Shown piece by piece: positions 8,816-20,840 of a stretch of 21,286 nucleotides of DNA (its first letter is position 1; each line of letters opens with the position of its first letter). The stretch is from a virus. The notes below the pieces were generated by a model, which saw only the letters and a program-made list of their open reading frames with translations, made no database searches and had not been told where the DNA came from. Location: positions 1 to 21,286 of the IMG/VR virus record IMGVR_UViG_3300032561_000154. The stretch is one strand, 5' to 3'. The translations under genes were made by a program, and so were the position numbers.

Positions 8816-10981
8816 ATGGCCGGATTAGATTCAATAACACCAACGGACGAAACCCCAGTAGATACGGCCGTAACTCCTTCTGCTCCTTCGGGACTCGCTG
8901 GGTATACATCTATTGCTGGCCCTAAAGGTACTAAAACACTTTTAGATCCTACAAATTCAGAAGCTATTCTTAAAAGAATGCAAGATCAGCTAGATGCTCG
9001 TACTGGTCCTATGGCTTCTTTTCAAAGTAACATGAAGGATGCTATAGCAGCTTGGGCTCCGTATACTCAAGTCAATGCAGCTATGAGCCAACGTGATCAA
9101 GATAAAAGAGCTGAACAGACTGATACTGATGCTATGCAAATGCAAATTGCAAACTTCAAAGCACAACAAGCTTTACAAGCAGCTAGTCGTCAAAACTTTG
9201 GTGATGTGCTTGCTAAATATAATCAAGGTACACAAGGTACACAAGGTACACAAGGAACACAAGGTACACAAGGTACACAAGGTACACAAGGTACACAAGG
9301 TACACAAGGTACACAAGGTACACAAGGTACACAAGGTACACAAGGTACACAAGGTACACAACTTCCGATAGACCCGGCAGTAATGGCTAACATTATGAGT
9401 TTGGCTCAAACAAATCCGGAAGCCGCTCAAGCAGAATATACTAAAGCATTAGCAGCTCGTTCATTACAAGCTGGAAAAACAAAGGGTGACTTAACACTAG
9501 CTCAATACAATTATGAGCATAACCCGGCTATGATGGAACAAAGACAGTGGGCTATTCCAGGTCAACCGGGCAAATACTTCTTTGGTAGTATTGTGGATTT
9601 TCAAAAAGCATTTCCAAACAACCAGCCTGCTCCTACCGCTGGTGCTCCTACCGCTGGTGCTCCTACCGCTGGTGCTGAAACTCCCCCGAGTTTTGACGTA
9701 CATAAATCTTATGGAACCCCTGCTAAATTATTAGATAACTTATCTGGTGCTGAGAGTTCACAAGATCCATATGCTATTAATCCAGTCTCTAAAGCATTAG
9801 GACGGTATCAATTTACACCAGAAACTGCTGCCATGCTTCATAAACAGGGTGTTAAGTTTAATCCATTTGATGCAGATGAATCTCGTGCTGCCGCTGATTA
9901 CTATATTCAACAATTAGTTAAACAAAATGGCGGCGACTATACAAAAGCTATGATGCAATATGGTGGTTTCAAAAAAGCTGATCCTACTAAATATTTATCA
10001 CAAGTAATGAATGGTGTTGACTTAGGTAATGCTCCTACTGCTGCTCCGACTGCTGCTCCTACTGCTGCTCCTACTGCTGCTCCTACTGCTGCTCCTACTG
10101 CCGCTCCTACTGCCACTCCTACTGCCGCTCCTACTGCTGCTACAATGAGCAAAACTCAAGCCCCTATTACTCCTGTACAAGCTATTGTACAACCCACTGG
10201 ACAAGCCCCCGTAGCCGTTCAACATATTCCACACGCTTGGGGTGAATCAACTGAAGCTTCTAAAACCATTGATCAAAAGAATGCTGATTTAGATGCCGCT
10301 GCTTTAGGTGCCACACAAAAAGTTGGTCAAGCAAAAGCTACTTCTACAGCTACAGCTTTAGGAACTGATTCAGCTAAACGAGAGTCTGCATTAAGAGCAC
10401 AAAAAGACTCAACATTAGCCACAATGCGTGATGCTGATCTAGTTAGTAACCTTGCTATAAATTCACCCCATTTATTTGCTCCAACGCAGCAAGGTGATAT
10501 CACATCAATAACACGTTCCATATTTGGTGATAAGTTGCCAATCGTTGGGGGCAATCCAGAAAATATTGTTCAGCAAATTAAATACTCACCTGAAGAAATT
10601 GCTAATCGTAAAATGGCGGATGATGCGTCTGCACGATTACAGATTGATTTTGCTAAACAAGCTTTTGCAGGAACTCGTATGGAACAATCATTCTTGCGAT
10701 TAGCTCAACAAGCTAAGGGTGTGGGGACAAATTCTTCGGCTTCATCAAACGTATTAGCCGCGACTTTAATGAAAGCTGCAGCTCAATTAGTGCAAGCAAA
10801 AAATGAAATGCTGGATCAATATCATACCAAATACGGTCTTGATGCTCCTTTTGAAGTCTTAGAATCATCCCCAGCTTATAAGCAACTAGAAATTAAAACT
10901 AATAACAATTTAGCAAAACAATTTCCTTCACATTTTAAACCAATTTCATCATTCGACGCATATAAAAAGGGGCAAATTTAA
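8816..10981 (+). CDS. Internal virion protein with lytic transglycosylase domain and repeat linkers
   Basis: A 721-aa multidomain virion protein. Residues 1-137 are helical and Gln-rich. Residues 138-182 are 15 copies of GTQ, and residues 273-287 are 3 copies of PTAGA. Residues about 295-390 form a lysozyme-like/SLT transglycosylase domain: Glu313 in SGAESSQDPYAINP is the candidate catalytic acid, followed by LGRYQFTPETAAML, the counterpart of the GxMQ-x-P-x-TA motif. Residues 407-442 are 9 copies of PTAA. The rest (450-721) is helical. Phages use such proteins to digest peptidoglycan locally when DNA is ejected, as T7 gp16 does. The repeat tracts are probably flexible linkers around the enzyme. 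The stop codon overlaps the next ATG (TAATG). Confidence 0.8.
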   Translation: MAGLDSITPTDETPVDTAVTPSAPSGLAGYTSIAGPKGTKTLLDPTNSEAILKRMQDQLDARTGPMASFQSNMKDAIAAWAPYTQVNAAMSQRDQDKRAEQTDTDAMQMQIANFKAQQALQAASRQNFGDVLAKYNQGTQGTQGTQGTQGTQGTQGTQGTQGTQGTQGTQGTQGTQGTQGTQLPIDPAVMANIMSLAQTNPEAAQAEYTKALAARSLQAGKTKGDLTLAQYNYEHNPAMMEQRQWAIPGQPGKYFFGSIVDFQKAFPNNQPAPTAGAPTAGAPTAGAETPPSFDVHKSYGTPAKLLDNLSGAESSQDPYAINPVSKALGRYQFTPETAAMLHKQGVKFNPFDADESRAAADYYIQQLVKQNGGDYTKAMMQYGGFKKADPTKYLSQVMNGVDLGNAPTAAPTAAPTAAPTAAPTAAPTAAPTATPTAAPTAATMSKTQAPITPVQAIVQPTGQAPVAVQHIPHAWGESTEASKTIDQKNADLDAAALGATQKVGQAKATSTATALGTDSAKRESALRAQKDSTLATMRDADLVSNLAINSPHLFAPTQQGDITSITRSIFGDKLPIVGGNPENIVQQIKYSPEEIANRKMADDASARLQIDFAKQAFAGTRMEQSFLRLAQQAKGVGTNSSASSNVLAATLMKAAAQLVQAKNEMLDQYHTKYGLDAPFEVLESSPAYKQLEIKTNNNLAKQFPSHFKPISSFDAYKKGQI
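9227..9361 (+). repeat. 9-bp tandem repeat, 15 copies, encoding (GTQ)15
   Basis: Fifteen in-frame units of ggtacacaa; the fourth differs by one base (ggaacacaa). The near-perfect nucleotide identity indicates recent expansion by slippage. The unit length is a multiple of three, so copy-number changes keep the reading frame. Confidence 0.97.
9632..9676 (+). repeat. 15-bp tandem repeat, 3 copies, encoding (PTAGA)3
   Basis: Three identical 15-base units (cctaccgctggtgct), in frame, between the GTQ-linked helical part and the transglycosylase domain. Probably a flexible linker. Confidence 0.95.
10034..10141 (+). repeat. 12-bp tandem repeat, 9 copies, encoding (PTAA)9
   Basis: Nine in-frame units of cctactgctgct with single-base variants; one unit encodes PTAT. 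It follows the transglycosylase domain and resembles Pro-Thr-Ala linkers of secreted enzymes. The units are more diverged than those of the 9-bp tract, so it may be older. Confidence 0.95.
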
Positions 10982-14874: not shown

Positions 14875-14948
14875 TGGAGCGGGATATCAGAATTGAACTG
14901 ATGACAGAAGTTTGGAAAACTCCGGTTTTACCATTAAACTAATCCCGC
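14875..14948 (-). tRNA. tRNA-Gly (anticodon UCC), CCA encoded
   Basis: A full 74-base cloverleaf. The acceptor stem GCGGGAT pairs with ATCCCGC, the D arm is GTTT/AAAC, the anticodon stem is GGAGT/ACTTC with loop TTTCCAA (anticodon TCC at 14914-14916), the variable loop is short, and the T arm is ATCAG-TTCAATT-CTGAT. The discriminator is U and the 3' CCA is encoded in the DNA (14875-14877). It decodes mainly GGA, a frequent codon in these phage genes. It lies 37 bases before the polA start codon, so it is probably cut from the polA leader transcript by host RNases P and E/Z. Confidence 0.95.
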
Positions 14949-15842: not shown

Positions 15843-15980
15843 TTAGTTTCCTATATTAATAGAGAGAATGAATAGATGAATACCAATATACCAGTAATAC
15901 GTTTCATCTACCCCAATCCTAGAATCAAATTCAACTCCAACCATCATTCCAGTGATAAAGTTTAGTTGTACCCAAATCAT
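15843..15980 (-). CDS. 45-aa hydrophobic small phage protein
   Basis: A 45-residue protein with a hydrophobic start (MIWVQLNFITGMMVGVEF) and a hydrophobic end (YYWYIGIHLFILSINIGN) flanking a short acidic middle (DSRIGVDE). It may be membrane-associated. The pattern F-x-x-G-x-x-x-G-x-E-F resembles a group of tiny phage proteins. The ATG overlaps the nrdJ stop codon (ATGA), and no separate Shine-Dalgarno is evident, so expression probably relies on ribosomes finishing the reductase gene. Function unknown. Confidence 0.65.
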   Translation of the reverse strand: MIWVQLNFITGMMVGVEFDSRIGVDETYYWYIGIHLFILSINIGN

Positions 15981-17848
15981 ATTTCACAAACTCCGGAAAC
16001 ACAAGCTAATGTTTGGGCCCCTTCTGTATTATCCTCTAACTCAATGAAGTCGTTCCAATCGATGTCCGTAGGCATTAATAAGACAGCCTCTTGATACTCT
16101 GCCTCAGTACAATCTGTATAGGGCGCCTGCACATACGTATGGTTTGAATGTGGCAAGAATGATACCCCACTTACCTCATCAAAGTACTTCCATACCCAAG
16201 CGCCAACTTCTACCCACTCTTCATCTTTAACACTAATTGTTACAGAAGGCTTATGCTCACACCAATGGCGCTGATAGATTAACCATAAATCTAATTGTTC
16301 AATTGCTGATTTGCTATCTCGTGTAATAGCTCCTTTAGGGGCTTTCATAGGAAAGCTAAACACTGCAGTTGAGTCAGGGCGATAAGCCTCGTCTTCTACT
16401 GGAACACCCTTGTCTTTAAGATACGTATATATTGGATCTTTCTTATCCATTCGAATACGTCTGATATAAAAATCATTATGCCTAGCATGAATGCCACTAG
16501 CACTATCCACCAACTGGCTGACTGTTCCGGAAGGTTTAACACAAGTGATAGAAGTAGAAGCAGAAATACCAAGTCTTTCAGCAAATGTTTCATTTGTTTT
16601 CCTCGCTAGGTCTCGAAGACCTTCTAACATTATTGGGTCGGGGTTATTAGTAATTGTAGCATCCATAATGCCTGTCATACTAACCCCCAGTAAACGCTCT
16701 TCTTCTGTGTTACGTTTCCAGTCTTCTGATAGGAACTGAAAGTCGCCTAGCATGGATTGAATAGTTCCAAGAATTGCGGCTAATTCTACTTTACGAGCTA
16801 ATGACTCTTGTGTGTCTCCGGCGCGTACAACCACTTCCGTAAGATTGCAGAATTGTTTATCACGGAGGATAATCTCACTACATGGATTGGTTCCGTAACT
16901 GAAAGCGTTAGAACGGCGCCCCCACTTAGCTGCTTGATTTTGTGCAGCAACACGATTAAAGATTCCTCGTTCACCTGATTTAGACTTAATAAGACTGACC
17001 CACTCTTCCAAGAAAGTTTCGCTATCTGGTTTTTCTGTATAGGCCACGCTGTTGTTAGCGAGTCCTCTATGTGGATTATCATTGTACCAAGCCCCCATTT
17101 TTGCTTCGCGCATACGGCGATCTGTTAAGTTCGAAAGTGAAATAAGAGCAGAGCGTCTAACACCCCCAACAACTACAATCTCTCCCACCATACACATTAA
17201 ATCATGGACTTCTAAACTATTGAGTTTGCGTCCACCAGCAGTTTTAAACGAACTAATCGAGAAGTCAAATAGCCGTTTAAGTGGATCAGGTCCTGATGCT
17301 CTTCCACCAAATGTTTTAAGTCTTGCTCCAGCAGGTCGAACCTTTGAGTAATCAATCTTAGGGATATCTCCTTCCCAGAGAGAAGAGAGTAATTTTTTGA
17401 AGGCTTTGGCCCATCCGAGTTTAGAGTCTTGTACAAAGATGACATCATCTACTTCCTTAAAATGATTAGGGATTGCTGGTAGCTTATCAATCTCTTGACG
17501 CTCACAACTAAAGCCAACGCCTGTACCATTCATAAGAATGTATAGTGCCTCAGAGAAAGCTCGTTTATTATTGACTGCAAGGTAAGAACAATTGTAGGCT
17601 GAAATATTATCACGATCACAAGCCTCTCCAGCCGTCATTAAAAGACGCATTGAGGGCATAACCTCAAGTGTTAAGATTGCTTTACGTAATTCAGCGTAAG
17701 GGATGTCTGCGTCTTTTGTCTTACCCTTTAAGTATGTAACTAGACGATCTACTGTCTCTTCCCATGACTCTCTACGCTGTTCCTTAGTTAAATATCGTGA
17801 ATATCGACTACGATGGATGACACTTTGATAAATACTAGGTAATTCCAT
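15977..17848 (-). CDS. nrdJ: Class II (adenosylcobalamin-dependent) ribonucleotide reductase
   Basis: A 623-aa monomeric reductase that makes deoxynucleotides using vitamin B12, of the Lactobacillus leichmannii RTPR type (739 aa, so this one is compact). Active-site block N321-P-C323-S-E325: C323 is the expected thiyl radical site and E325 the acid. C87 (AYNCSYL) and C334 match the reducing pair C119/C419, and the 11-residue C323-C334 spacing equals that of C408-C419. The C-terminal CVSGVC (C616, C621) is the Cx4C shuttle pair. The start is ATG 17848 with GAGAGG eight bases upstream, overlapping the kinase gene by 14 bases. It is oxygen-independent but B12-dependent, which suggests a host or habitat with available B12. 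Confidence 0.93.
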   Translation of the reverse strand: MELPSIYQSVIHRSRYSRYLTKEQRRESWEETVDRLVTYLKGKTKDADIPYAELRKAILTLEVMPSMRLLMTAGEACDRDNISAYNCSYLAVNNKRAFSEALYILMNGTGVGFSCERQEIDKLPAIPNHFKEVDDVIFVQDSKLGWAKAFKKLLSSLWEGDIPKIDYSKVRPAGARLKTFGGRASGPDPLKRLFDFSISSFKTAGGRKLNSLEVHDLMCMVGEIVVVGGVRRSALISLSNLTDRRMREAKMGAWYNDNPHRGLANNSVAYTEKPDSETFLEEWVSLIKSKSGERGIFNRVAAQNQAAKWGRRSNAFSYGTNPCSEIILRDKQFCNLTEVVVRAGDTQESLARKVELAAILGTIQSMLGDFQFLSEDWKRNTEEERLLGVSMTGIMDATITNNPDPIMLEGLRDLARKTNETFAERLGISASTSITCVKPSGTVSQLVDSASGIHARHNDFYIRRIRMDKKDPIYTYLKDKGVPVEDEAYRPDSTAVFSFPMKAPKGAITRDSKSAIEQLDLWLIYQRHWCEHKPSVTISVKDEEWVEVGAWVWKYFDEVSGVSFLPHSNHTYVQAPYTDCTEAEYQEAVLLMPTDIDWNDFIELEDNTEGAQTLACVSGVCEI

Positions 17849-18251
17849 TTAAAATCCTCTCAGCGTGAGCTTCTGCATCTTTTGTTTTGATGTGGAAGTC
17901 GCATATATTTGGTGGTGTAAATAATTTATTAGTATCTTCGTATTCGCTTTTTGTTTCTGTATCCATCCATATTGTCACTTGTGGTCCAAATAAATACCAC
18001 ATTAATGGAGTAGCACAAACAAAATCGCAAATCACAAAATCTACTTTTTGATCTTTTGATAGTAAGTGCATCCTAGAAGCTTGTCGCATCCTACCAGATA
18101 GCGTAAAGTCCCAGTCATCATATTCTTTTCGTACTTGGTCTGCATTAAACCATTTTACTGTCTTACCGCTCTCTATTAGTTTTGATATTAACTTCTCGGC
18201 TAAGGTGGTTTTACCAGTTCCGGGAAGACCCATAATTAGTATTTTTTTCAT
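17835..18251 (-). CDS. Adenylylsulfate (APS) kinase-like P-loop kinase
   Basis: A 138-aa P-loop kinase that resembles the CysC fold: Walker A GLPGTGKTT (residues 8-16), then FNADQVR (36-41) as counterpart of the CysC DGDNVR, DDWDFTLSGRMRQASRM, and a lid region with WMDT (95-98) and EYEDTNKLF as counterpart of VDTPLxxCExRDPKxLY. The family makes PAPS from APS and ATP; substrate is inferred, and another small-molecule kinase is possible. ATG 18251 gives the usual P-loop distance but has no Shine-Dalgarno and abuts a terminator T-run. The alternative TTG at 18275, inside the terminator loop, has AAGG seven bases upstream and would add eight residues. A sulfotransferase-like gene lies in the same block. 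Confidence 0.7.
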   Translation of the reverse strand: MKKILIMGLPGTGKTTLAEKLISKLIESGKTVKWFNADQVRKEYDDWDFTLSGRMRQASRMHLLSKDQKVDFVICDFVCATPLMWYLFGPQVTIWMDTETKSEYEDTNKLFTPPNICDFHIKTKDAEAHAERILNGIT

Positions 18252-18281
18252 AAAAAAGGGGGACTGATTCCTCAATCCCCC
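18252..18281 (-). terminator. Intrinsic terminator after the SSB gene
   Basis: On the minus strand, GGGGGA (18276-18281 arm) pairs with TCCCCC (18258-18263) across a 12-base loop, followed by six T bases (18252-18257), a textbook rho-independent terminator. It starts 10 bases after the SSB stop codon, and the kinase ATG begins immediately after the T-run. Confidence 0.85.
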
Positions 18282-18291
18282 ACCTTAGTAA

Positions 18292-18804
18292 TTAAATTGC
18301 GAAGTCTGATGCGGCTGAAGAACTACCACCCAATTTTTCACCATCTTCTAACTTTTGAACATTATTAAGACCACAGGCAATGCCTTTAGATCCATTAGAG
18401 TTATATGCATACATTGTTACTGATGCTCGGCCATAACAGCCTGAATAAAACTCTCCCGCATCAATAATTGCATTCATATCAGCATCTACAACTCCAGGTT
18501 TTTGTCCTGAGTTTGCATTGATAAAATATGAGTTTGCATATGCTTCATCATCTTTTTCTGCATCACCATCTCGTAAACCACCTTTTAGTAGTTTAGGAAG
18601 TGATCCACCAAATACAGCTAGGTTTGCTTCTGATACATCTTTAAATGCTTTATTAAAACGAGCTACAGTTTCCTTATCTGATTTAGGGATAATGATTGAT
18701 ACTGAGTACTTAGGTACACCGCCTTCCATAGCGGCTTGTGGTTGGAAAACGTGAGCGTATGAGAAACGTACTTTACCTGTTACAATTTTTTCGTTTGTTG
18801 CCAT
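18292..18804 (-). CDS. DUF2815-type single-stranded DNA-binding protein
   Basis: A 170-aa protein of the DUF2815 family, phage ssDNA-binding proteins with an OB fold comparable to T7 gp2.5. The pattern is clear: N-terminal GKVRFSYAHVFQP, GGVPKYSVSIIIPKSD, a helix (ARFNKAFKDVSE), ANSYFINANSGQKPGVVD and FYSGCYGRASVTMYAYN. It protects ssDNA during replication and recombination, and is usually next to DUF2800 nucleases and PolA, as here. The C-terminus (GGSSSAASDFAI) lacks the long acidic tail often seen in SSBs. Start ATG 18804 has AAGGAAG about nine bases upstream. It has its own promoter and leader upstream and a strong terminator downstream, consistent with high, separate expression. Confidence 0.9.
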   Translation of the reverse strand: MATNEKIVTGKVRFSYAHVFQPQAAMEGGVPKYSVSIIIPKSDKETVARFNKAFKDVSEANLAVFGGSLPKLLKGGLRDGDAEKDDEAYANSYFINANSGQKPGVVDADMNAIIDAGEFYSGCYGRASVTMYAYNSNGSKGIACGLNNVQKLEDGEKLGGSSSAASDFAI

Positions 18805-18829
18805 GATGGTTTACTTCCTTTTAACGGTA

Positions 18830-18856
18830 GAGCAGAACTTCAATGGGTGTCTGCTC
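18830..18856 (-). promoter_or_regulatory. Perfect inverted repeat in the SSB leader
   Basis: GAGCAGA and TCTGCTC form a 7-bp stem with a 13-base loop in the 5' untranslated leader of the SSB mRNA, between the promoter and the ribosome-binding site. It could be a dyad operator or an RNA hairpin that affects translation. Confidence 0.6.
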
Positions 18857-18873
18857 GTCTGACCCTGAAAACT

Positions 18874-18902
18874 ATTTTCCTCGCTTTATTCCAGCATGTC
18901 AA
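18874..18902 (-). promoter_or_regulatory. Sigma70-like promoter for the SSB gene
   Basis: On the minus strand, TTGACA (18897-18902) matches the -35 consensus fully, and a 17-base spacer leads to GAAAAT (18874-18879; 4/6 of TATAAT). It overlaps the end of the 83-aa gene and is about 70 bases upstream of the SSB ATG. Confidence 0.65.
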
Positions 18903-19150
18903 GCATTAAATAATAAATTGTTTGCTTGAAGCGCTTCTTTTATTGCTAATGCATTTACAAACTCATCGTACCTGTCTTGCCTATTAAGAATTCTTGGATC
19001 TAATTCTGCCAGTTGGAGTATATGGTATACCATCTCCCGTAATACCTCCATGTCCGCTTTCATCTCTTCATTACGCTTAAAAAGTTCAGTCATGTTAGCT
19101 ATAAGTGGATCTGGTATATTAAACTCAGTGTCAAAGTACACTACAATCAT
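18899..19150 (-). CDS. 83-aa helical protein of unknown function
   Basis: An 83-residue protein. After a short strand-like start (MIVVYFDTEF), residues 13-50 are a highly charged, leucine-containing helix (MTELFKRNEEMKADMEVLRE) that probably forms a coiled coil, followed by a second helix ending ALQANNLLFNA. No family was recognised. The start codon overlaps the stop codon of the sulfotransferase-like gene (ATGA), so the two are translationally coupled and may act together. Its end overlaps the SSB promoter. No membrane segment or metal-binding cluster is visible. Confidence 0.65.
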   Translation of the reverse strand: MIVVYFDTEFNIPDPLIANMTELFKRNEEMKADMEVLREMVYHILQLAELDPRILNRQDRYDEFVNALAIKEALQANNLLFNA

Positions 19151-19707
19151 TTATACGTCAATCCAATAGGCAATTTTAAAACAGTTCCAAAATGATCTAT
19201 CATTGGCTTAAATGCTGAATACTTTTCTCGGTACTCTGTTTGATTGCTATATGCCAATTCAGGAATAGCTACTGGCTTCTCATATGCAATTACAAAATCA
19301 TAGAAAAACTTAGCTCGTACAAACTCCCTTTGTAGCATAGCTACTTGAGTGTTATGTACTTGTCGTGGATTGGGGTCAGTAAATTGACATAACATTTTTT
19401 CAATAAACGCCAAGTATGACCACATTGAGTTCTGTACATTTTGGCGCGACACAAAGATATCAGTATGTATCAAGTTAAACCAAGTTGTGTCGTGGTTATT
19501 CACTACTACCTTATTAAAATCTACTGTCTTCAAGAACTCCACAGTCTTTGGGTAGACTACATCTAATTTGAGCTCGTGAATTTCGTTCTTATGTTTGGCT
19601 TCGATGTTGATATTAAATATCTCATCAAGCAATTGATACCCAAGCTTGTCAGCTAGATCCGAGCAGTATTTAGTTGAGCCTGATCTAGGGATGGATGATA
19701 CTATCAT
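19147..19707 (-). CDS. Sulfotransferase-like protein
   Basis: A 186-aa protein with two PAPS-binding signatures of sulfotransferases. The first is IPRSGSTKY at residues 6-14 (5'-phosphosulfate loop, PRSGT/S type, at the very N-terminus as usual). The second is FVSRQNVQNSMWSYL at 85-99, which aligns without gaps to the bacterial pattern R-x-N-V-x5-S (3'-phosphate binding; R88 and S97). A His (H72 in NNHDTTW) could be the catalytic base. It is shorter than many family members (about 250 aa), so the C-terminal acceptor part may be reduced. Acceptor unknown. It starts within the stop codon of the DUF2800 gene (ATGA overlap), with AAGGA seven bases upstream. Its likely cofactor could come from the downstream APS kinase-like protein. 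Confidence 0.65.
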   Translation of the reverse strand: MIVSSIPRSGSTKYCSDLADKLGYQLLDEIFNINIEAKHKNEIHELKLDVVYPKTVEFLKTVDFNKVVVNNHDTTWFNLIHTDIFVSRQNVQNSMWSYLAFIEKMLCQFTDPNPRQVHNTQVAMLQREFVRAKFFYDFVIAYEKPVAIPELAYSNQTEYREKYSAFKPMIDHFGTVLKLPIGLTYK

Positions 19708-20840
19708 GCAAAATCCTTTTCTGCACTGGCTGTATCGCGGACCAATTTAGGAGAGCCCTCTGGACGCGCAATCAATGAGCCGAGCCATGTGACTACCTGT
19801 CCCTTGGCTGTTAGTTTCTCCAACTGTGCTAGGCTCTTTAGTTTGGATGGTTCGTATAGAGCCTCCATTGGGATACCTTTGTTCTGCAATATTACTGCGG
19901 CCAGTGTGGGGTCACTAATCTTACGATGTGTCACTGTGGTTCCTAATTTGTAACCTTTTGGAATATTGCCCTTAGTAACAGCTTGGTCAAGAGACCAGTC
20001 TTCTACATCTGATACCCAAGTACGTAGGTCTTGAGCCTTAGACAGCACCTCTGATACCTCAGTTTCAGATAATAGTGGTGGGGTTCTAAATTCCATTTTA
20101 GCTAACGAAGTATTTAGATCTGCCCTTGCTCGGCATGTTGCCTTAGCTCTGCAAAATCCACAATGCTCTCCGGCAATAAAATCCCCCTCACCAGCCCAAG
20201 CTTTTTTAGCTTTTGGTTTGACAAAATGATTTGCCCAGTCTAAAAGCTTAACTAGCGTTGTGCTATCTGTCGTGATGGAATTAAGGCGGGGTTGCATAAT
20301 GGTATACACAACTTCGGTAATATCAGGAAATTCATCCTTAAATTTATTCCAAGCACCTAATCCATATAGTCTTAGTTGCGGGTTATCTAAGGCTGAAACT
20401 GCAATACCTGCGCCAAATTTAAGGTCGATAACAGTCACTCTATGCTTCGATAAAATAACCACATCAGCTGTACCAAAACCATCGGGAGCCCAGTCTGAAT
20501 AATCTGTCTTTTGTTCAAATAGTGGAGTATCTCCATCTCCGATTTGAGACCGCACATAAAGTACATAGTTGTCTACATGTGCCTCAAAGTCTTCGTTATA
20601 ATACTGGGTAGCTTTTACTTCAGCAACTCCAGTGTCGAACTCTTTGGTAGTGATTTGATCATATAGTTTGCGTAGTTTAAGTTCTGCTAGTGTATGGGCT
20701 GTGGTGCCCTCTTCACTAAATGAAAATCCATTAGAAGATTTACTCCGCTGTTCTGGAAGTGTGGCTTCTAGTCTTGGACTTGGTGTACAAGTTAGCCATC
20801 TTTTGCTACTTGATGCGGACAATAAAGCATGTGCTACCAT
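19704..20840 (-). CDS. DUF2800 RecB/Cas4-like nuclease
   Basis: A 378-aa protein of the DUF2800 family, a PD-(D/E)XK nuclease related to Cas4 and the RecB/AddB nuclease domain. The N-terminus (ALLSASSSKRWLTCTPSPRL, then EEGTTAHTLAEL) is a family hallmark. Catalytic residues: D126 (GTAD), D139-x-K141 (VIDLK) and the Q155-x3-Y159 motif. Cysteines C18, C227, C230 and C236 (HCGFCRAKATC) are placed to bind a 4Fe-4S cluster, one N-terminal and three C-terminal, as in Cas4 and AddB. The likely role is 5' or 3' end processing in replication or recombination with the DUF2815 SSB. It begins at ATG 20840 with AAGGGA just upstream, under a strong promoter, and overlaps the next gene. Confidence 0.88.
   Translation of the reverse strand: MVAHALLSASSSKRWLTCTPSPRLEATLPEQRSKSSNGFSFSEEGTTAHTLAELKLRKLYDQITTKEFDTGVAEVKATQYYNEDFEAHVDNYVLYVRSQIGDGDTPLFEQKTDYSDWAPDGFGTADVVILSKHRVTVIDLKFGAGIAVSALDNPQLRLYGLGAWNKFKDEFPDITEVVYTIMQPRLNSITTDSTTLVKLLDWANHFVKPKAKKAWAGEGDFIAGEHCGFCRAKATCRARADLNTSLAKMEFRTPPLLSETEVSEVLSKAQDLRTWVSDVEDWSLDQAVTKGNIPKGYKLGTTVTHRKISDPTLAAVILQNKGIPMEALYEPSKLKSLAQLEKLTAKGQVVTWLGSLIARPEGSPKLVRDTASAEKDFA

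Follow-up and report, generated by a model that had tools for sequence, protein, structure and literature searches.

Genes of the cysC type in phages have been counted in ecosystem studies as sulfur-assimilation genes, at times transcribed above bacterial cysC (PMC10914622), and phage sulfotransferases have also been described, with a function that was called unclear (PMC10580990). A literature search, with most subscription journals and preprints outside its reach, returned no work joining phage adenosine 5′-phosphosulfate (APS) kinases to phage sulfotransferases. We analysed a 21-kb virus record of a freshwater phage (IMG/VR IMGVR_UViG_3300032561_000154, 21,286 nt, probably a fragment; hereafter the window), which carries a gene for an APS-kinase-like protein and a gene for a 186-aa protein with a sulfotransferase-like loop (Table 1). 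A sequence-only reading of the window had proposed that these genes make and spend 3′-phosphoadenosine 5′-phosphosulfate (PAPS), and the motifs, genes and ATGA overlap it named were all present in the sequence. Phage cysC and phage sulfotransferases are each known, and what is new is their linkage, the fusions of the kinase and the small 186-aa family. The linkage suggests that phage 'cysC' would attach sulfate to something rather than make cysteine.

A phage kinase family related to APS kinases

The kinase of the window belongs to a family with 259 relatives in an IMG/VR scan. Its longest reading frame (17835-18275, minus strand) opens with TTG, with the conserved start being the ATG at 18251 (138 aa), and the product contains the motifs GLPGTGKTT, FNADQVR and EYEDTNKLF. 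Pfam APS_kinase matched it at 27.7 bits (E 3.1e-6), exceeding the cut-off of 21.1, with KTI12 scoring slightly higher (31.1 bits); PHROG 10255 ('kinase') matched at E 7.6e-21, and the protein scored far below the NCBIfam CysC equivalog cut-offs. Relatives reached 43 bits with Pfam APS_kinase, and a profile of 31 family members placed APS kinases first among PDB sequences (2yvu 1.5e-11, 2gks 2.5e-8, 7yq0 1.1e-6). The fold was examined on an AlphaFold model of the family member L081 (pLDDT 82.5), the window copy being known by sequence, and the top four PDB matches of this model in Foldseek were all APS kinases (7yq1, TMt 0.70, E 2.7e-6).

In Mycobacterium tuberculosis CysC, the residues Asp480, Arg483, Phe492 and Arg497 contact APS (PMC4373884). 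These four positions are invariant in the 31 phage kinases (alignment A4; aligned to 2yvu, 2gks and 7yq0), with D56, R59, F67 and R72 as the equivalents in L081, and NAD-QVR..WDF..GR in the window. Three features, the profile, the fold and the residues in contact with APS, thus bear out the earlier assignment as APS-kinase-like, and the protein does not clearly fall among the nucleotide or polynucleotide kinases; judged by its sequence, the window kinase very probably makes PAPS, the activated-sulfate donor. The segment EYEDTNKLF had been taken for the lid, and it is indeed a family-conserved motif (D-T-N-K-x-F-x-P-P) whose alignment with Arg559, Lys562 and Phe576 of the M. tuberculosis enzyme is ambiguous, but it differs from the lid of canonical APS kinases, ~20 residues longer than that of the phage family. 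The canonical length used for this comparison is partly that described for the M. tuberculosis enzyme (PMC4373884).

Linkage to sulfotransferases and kinase fusions

Outside the window clade, a gene for a Sulfotransfer_3/_1-type sulfotransferase (E 1e-11 to 1e-20) was located ≤6 kb from the kinase gene in 39 of 61 loci, representing 16 of 30 independent clusters, compared with 0/160 control loci (80 clamp-loader and 80 ribonucleotide reductase (RNR) loci; Fisher p 2e-15), these controls being core-gene loci, which carry fewer accessory genes. Co-occurrence across phages, proposed earlier as a check, is thus strong when the kinase family is taken as a whole and paired with sulfotransferases of certain identity. 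In L026, L027 and L081 the overlap of the two genes is 4 nt long, and the called frames overlap more in L041, L047 and L065, where the extent depends on the start codon chosen. Their neighbourhoods contain tail-fibre, tail-chaperone and glycosyltransferase (GT25, GT2, sugar-binding DXD) genes. An accessory-region control of 25 tail-fibre loci gave a sulfotransferase in 2/2 kinase-positive and 0/23 kinase-negative loci, and adds little as it is small and both positives come from the query contig and a contig nearly identical to it. The link is not a strict one, since cyanophage isolates carry sulfotransferases for which the kinase family was not found by hidden Markov model in the flanks fetched (~5 kb each side). 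Two sulfotransferase domains (L053:720-2483, L039:3107-4882) are fused to a long C-terminal part without a Pfam match, which is TPR- or glycosyltransferase-like by eye.

In a large share of the kinase relatives, many of them sulfotransferase-linked, a further domain at the C terminus bears the motifs G-R-[WYF]-Q-P-[WF]-H-x-G-H and I-S-A-T-x-I-R (for example L081:5520-6362). This domain matches NMNAT (2qjt, E 9.6e-6; 1f9a, E 2.5e-4; TIGR01527), and one fused relative weakly matches ATP sulfurylase (PF01747, E 1.1e-4, below the cut-off); no standalone ATP sulfurylase was detected above the cut-off in the same phages. Fusions of kinase and nucleotidyltransferase also occur in Stenotrophomonas, Xanthomonas and Clavibacter phages. 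On these sequence matches, the fused domain may be sulfate-activating, making the fusion a compact PAPS synthetase, or may be an NAD-type enzyme. A PAPS-making fusion enzyme of ~280 aa would be unusually small, as would a sulfotransferase of 186 aa. Phage isolates with the kinase are DLP6, Suzuki, Bhz60, AhaSv and Clavibacter phage 33; no sulfotransferase was found in DLP6 and Bhz60, the two isolates searched whole. In the window-clade contigs, which are fragments, no sulfotransferase besides the putative 186-aa one was found.

The 186-aa protein family

The 186-aa protein has PRSGST at residues 7-12 and R88-Q-N90-V-Q-N-S94-M-W-S97 further on, and R8, G10, S11, T12, K13, R88, N90, Q92, S94, W96 and S97 are invariant in its family (alignment A2). 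Searches of Pfam, PHROGs, NCBIfam, PDB, INPHARED phages, IMG/VR and GTDB genomes yielded this small family only. The reading frame is a real gene, because it has homologs in other phage lineages (36-46% identity) and shows a dN/dS of ~0.06 between the window and its nearest relative, indicative of purifying selection. It differs by 15.5% of nucleotides from L002:3433-3993, with 0-4% difference in the neighbouring genes and an identical 83-aa gene, and with amino-acid changes clustered at residues 93-123, a pattern that looks like allele replacement by recombination. In L092:748-2186 and L094:4165-5588, a GTP cyclohydrolase I gene immediately precedes the homolog, with UDP-sugar dehydrogenase and MazG genes nearby.

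Alignment with hhalign gave 83% for the 186-aa family against phage sulfotransferases over 13 columns and 69-72% against the Stf0 type, in both cases mainly through the loop, and 0.9% against the kinase profile, with P ~1e-5 for two sulfotransferase profiles. R88, S94 and S97 follow a predicted strand, and form a candidate 3′-phosphate motif with a spacing of +6/+9, compared with +8 in phage sulfotransferases; the strand-loop-helix order in a low-confidence model fits a sulfotransferase. The protein is thus termed sulfotransferase-like, and it is treated here as putative and not filed as a sulfotransferase, because no curated family recognises it. Of its earlier description as a sulfotransferase, the 5′-phosphosulfate-loop motif remains recognisable, but profile matches are absent and the structural model is poor.

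A possible sulfation pathway and its alternatives

The kinase and the 186-aa protein may make and use PAPS as optional cassettes, a joint explanation to which we give a probability of roughly 0.45. The kinase would phosphorylate host-made APS to PAPS during infection, and the 186-aa protein would act as a minimal sulfotransferase, using kinase-made or host PAPS to sulfate some target. In the window clade the kinase would boost the donor pool, both genes being optional cassettes in a replication and nucleotide operon, and elsewhere the same kinase family is linked to sulfotransferases of full size, among tail-fibre and glycosyltransferase genes. Since the sulfotransferase-linked kinases sit in such neighbourhoods, phage PAPS probably serves as a rule to sulfate a glycan or protein of the virion or the cell surface. 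An ATP sulfurylase gene was not seen in the window, so the host would have to supply APS, and the donor pathway is not 'complete' in the strict sense, as had been proposed. A wider version, which we find doubtful, would be a dedicated phage sulfation system, in which a family of APS kinases, many of them joined to a nucleotidyltransferase of the sulfurylase or NMNAT kind, feeds co-encoded sulfotransferases acting on tail-fibre or host-surface glycans, with the window clade as a minimal version using the new 186-aa family.

The notion of a functional pair is favoured by the presence of the kinase in 4/5 lineages of this phage group with the 186-aa gene versus 4/19 without it (p 0.03), where the former were drawn by 186-aa scans and the latter by single-stranded DNA-binding protein (SSB); among SSB-sampled lineages few have the kinase and fewer the 186-aa gene (association p ~0.1), and the enrichment is suggestive only. 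Each gene also occurs without the other, and kinase and 186-aa gene are optional cassettes, not an obligate pair.

This independence is one of several observations that weigh against the joint explanation, together with the limits of the linkage controls given above. The kinase is present without the 186-aa gene in L003-6, L013, L015-20 and L310-319, and the 186-aa gene without the kinase in L086 and in the unrelated phages L092-94. In L003-6 the 186-aa gene is missing and the 83-aa gene is overlapped by the DUF2800 gene itself; in L086 the SSB gene is followed by the RNR gene. The description of the genes as one operon is doubtful because of a strong terminator-like hairpin between the SSB gene and the kinase ATG (GGGGGATTGA-GGAA-TCAGTCCCCC-TTTTTT; -19.5 kcal/mol, z -2.9 for the 56-nt stretch). 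Its U-run enters the kinase start codon, and attenuation of kinase-RNR transcription is possible judging from the predicted fold. In L007, by contrast, the SSB and kinase genes touch. The activity of the window kinase is not assured, because of the shortened lid and of a Trp at a near-invariant Arg (CATPLMWYLF versus APLPEMRxNF), a change common to the window kinase and its nearest relatives (L003-type). The kinase gene also shares 14 nt with the start of the RNR gene downstream, and the kinase may contribute to nucleotide supply. For the 186-aa protein, Pfam, PHROGs, NCBIfam and PDB sequences gave no sulfotransferase match, and in global hhalign it did not align with phage sulfotransferases beyond the loop. 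Its AlphaFold (AF2) model from 8 sequences was poor (pLDDT 54), and gave mainly P-loop kinases in Foldseek, with adenylate and shikimate kinases on top and Stf0 1tex at rank 19, and an unnamed protein as top match in BFVD; as the model is poor, these fold matches were not used as proof.

These observations leave room for other roles. The kinase could serve the metabolism of host or phage by making PAPS or a different phosphorylated adenylate, with the 186-aa gene being an unrelated cassette, either a user of host PAPS or no sulfotransferase at all; we consider this possible, at odds clearly below those of the joint explanation, as the two genes are present or absent independently in sister and unrelated phages, a terminator separates SSB and kinase, and the 186-aa fold is unconfirmed, with the lineage-level enrichment of the kinase and the sulfotransferase-specific PRSGST loop in hhalign arguing for a connection instead. 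The NMNAT matches of the fused domains, the RNR overlap, the NADAR gene adjoining the kinase in phage Bhz60, and the lack of a sulfotransferase in Bhz60 and DLP6 are what would be expected of a kinase in nucleotide metabolism or NAD salvage. However, the kinase domain is nearest to APS kinases by sequence and structure, its APS-contact residues are invariant, the sulfotransferase linkage takes in many fused members, and the weak sulfurylase match of one of these indicates that the fused domain may act on sulfate, making such a role unlikely.

A function in assimilatory sulfate reduction for cysteine supply, as assigned to cysC and cysH of freshwater phages (PMC10914622) and restated in a 2025 review that marks it 'not validated' (PMC12713726), appears highly improbable. 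CysH or PAPS reductase (PF01507), another PAPS consumer, was found in 0/41 phage records searched, some of 50-168 kb, and the kinase repeatedly adjoins sulfotransferases instead; these data favour a role of phage 'cysC' in sulfation over one in assimilatory sulfate reduction.

The genes of the window follow the minus-strand order terminase small subunit, DUF2800 exonuclease, 186-aa protein, 83-aa protein, SSB, kinase, class II RNR, several small open reading frames, tRNA-Gly and PolA.

Table 1. Location of the kinase gene, the 186-aa gene and adjacent features in the window
Feature	Coordinates	Strand	Basis
APS-kinase-like (CysC-like) P-loop kinase, 138 aa	17835..18251	-	Pfam, PHROG, PDB profile, L081 model
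186-aa putative minimal sulfotransferase (PRSGST loop; R88..S94/S97)	19147..19707	-	Motifs, family alignment A2, hhalign
83-aa conserved protein	18899..19150	-	Kept in most sister operons
Single-stranded DNA-binding protein (Enc34/Gp2.5 type)	18292..18804	-	PF10991 (Enc34_ssDNA-bd) E 3.4e-65; PHROG 112
Intrinsic-terminator-like hairpin with U-run ending at kinase ATG	18258..18281	-	Folding energy
Class II (B12-dependent) ribonucleotide reductase, downstream of kinase	15977..17848	-	Pfam Ribonuc_red_lgC
DUF2800 PD-(D/E)XK exonuclease, upstream of 186-aa gene	19704..20840	-	PF10926 E 2.3e-112; PHROG 69 exonuclease

The 83-aa gene is ATGA-coupled to whatever lies upstream, which is the 186-aa gene in the window, and it had been put forward as a partner of the sulfotransferase; this was rejected, as most sister phages have it whether or not they carry the 186-aa gene or the kinase. 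Its product has no family match in Pfam, PHROGs or NCBIfam. The tRNA-Gly (TCC) at 14875-14948 lies upstream of the PolA gene, and a structural-region protein at 8816-10981 contains long in-frame (GTQ)n, APTAG and APTA repeats, which are open in other frames too, as KVH and AVG repeats. The host of the phage may be a freshwater methylophile or another betaproteobacterium, as the RNR is closest (≤77% identical) to that of the Methylophilales phages MEP401/402, and one relative of the operon (L102) sits in a betaproteobacterial metagenome-assembled genome.

Compared with known systems, the phage kinases share with APS kinase (CysC; PF01583; 2yvu, 7yq1, 1m7g) the P-loop kinase fold and the [DN][GA]D-x-x-R, F and R positions contacting APS, but have FNAD for LDGD and a shorter lid, and past the APLP/CPT segment Trp replaces the near-invariant Arg in the window copy. 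The viral cysC auxiliary metabolic genes of freshwater phages (PMC10914622) are probably the same gene class from the same habitat type; the published reading is assimilatory sulfate reduction, whereas the gene context described here points to sulfation. As in the bifunctional PAPS synthetases (human PAPSS1, Aquifex SAT/APSK 2gks), kinase relatives are fused to a HIGH-type nucleotidyltransferase domain, but this domain is nearer to NMNAT than to ATP sulfurylase, and the window copy does not have it.

For the 186-aa protein, the closest comparisons are with the phage sulfotransferases of PF13469/PHROG 27463 (cyanophages S-SRM01, S-SKS1 and S-SCSM1, and OM43-phage metagenome genomes; PMC10580990), with which it has the PRSGST loop in common, and some relatives of which adjoin members of the kinase family. 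Those proteins are 260-290 aa or longer and clear Pfam members, and their models miss the 186-aa protein. With the Stf0-type trehalose 2-sulfotransferase (PF09037, 1tex), which is the only sulfotransferase among the 50 Foldseek matches listed for the low-confidence 186-aa model (TMq 0.46, E 0.17), it shares the RSGST loop and a conserved acidic pair 15-20 residues on, but it lacks a Pfam match and is shorter, at 186 aa versus ~245-265 aa for the Stf0 type.

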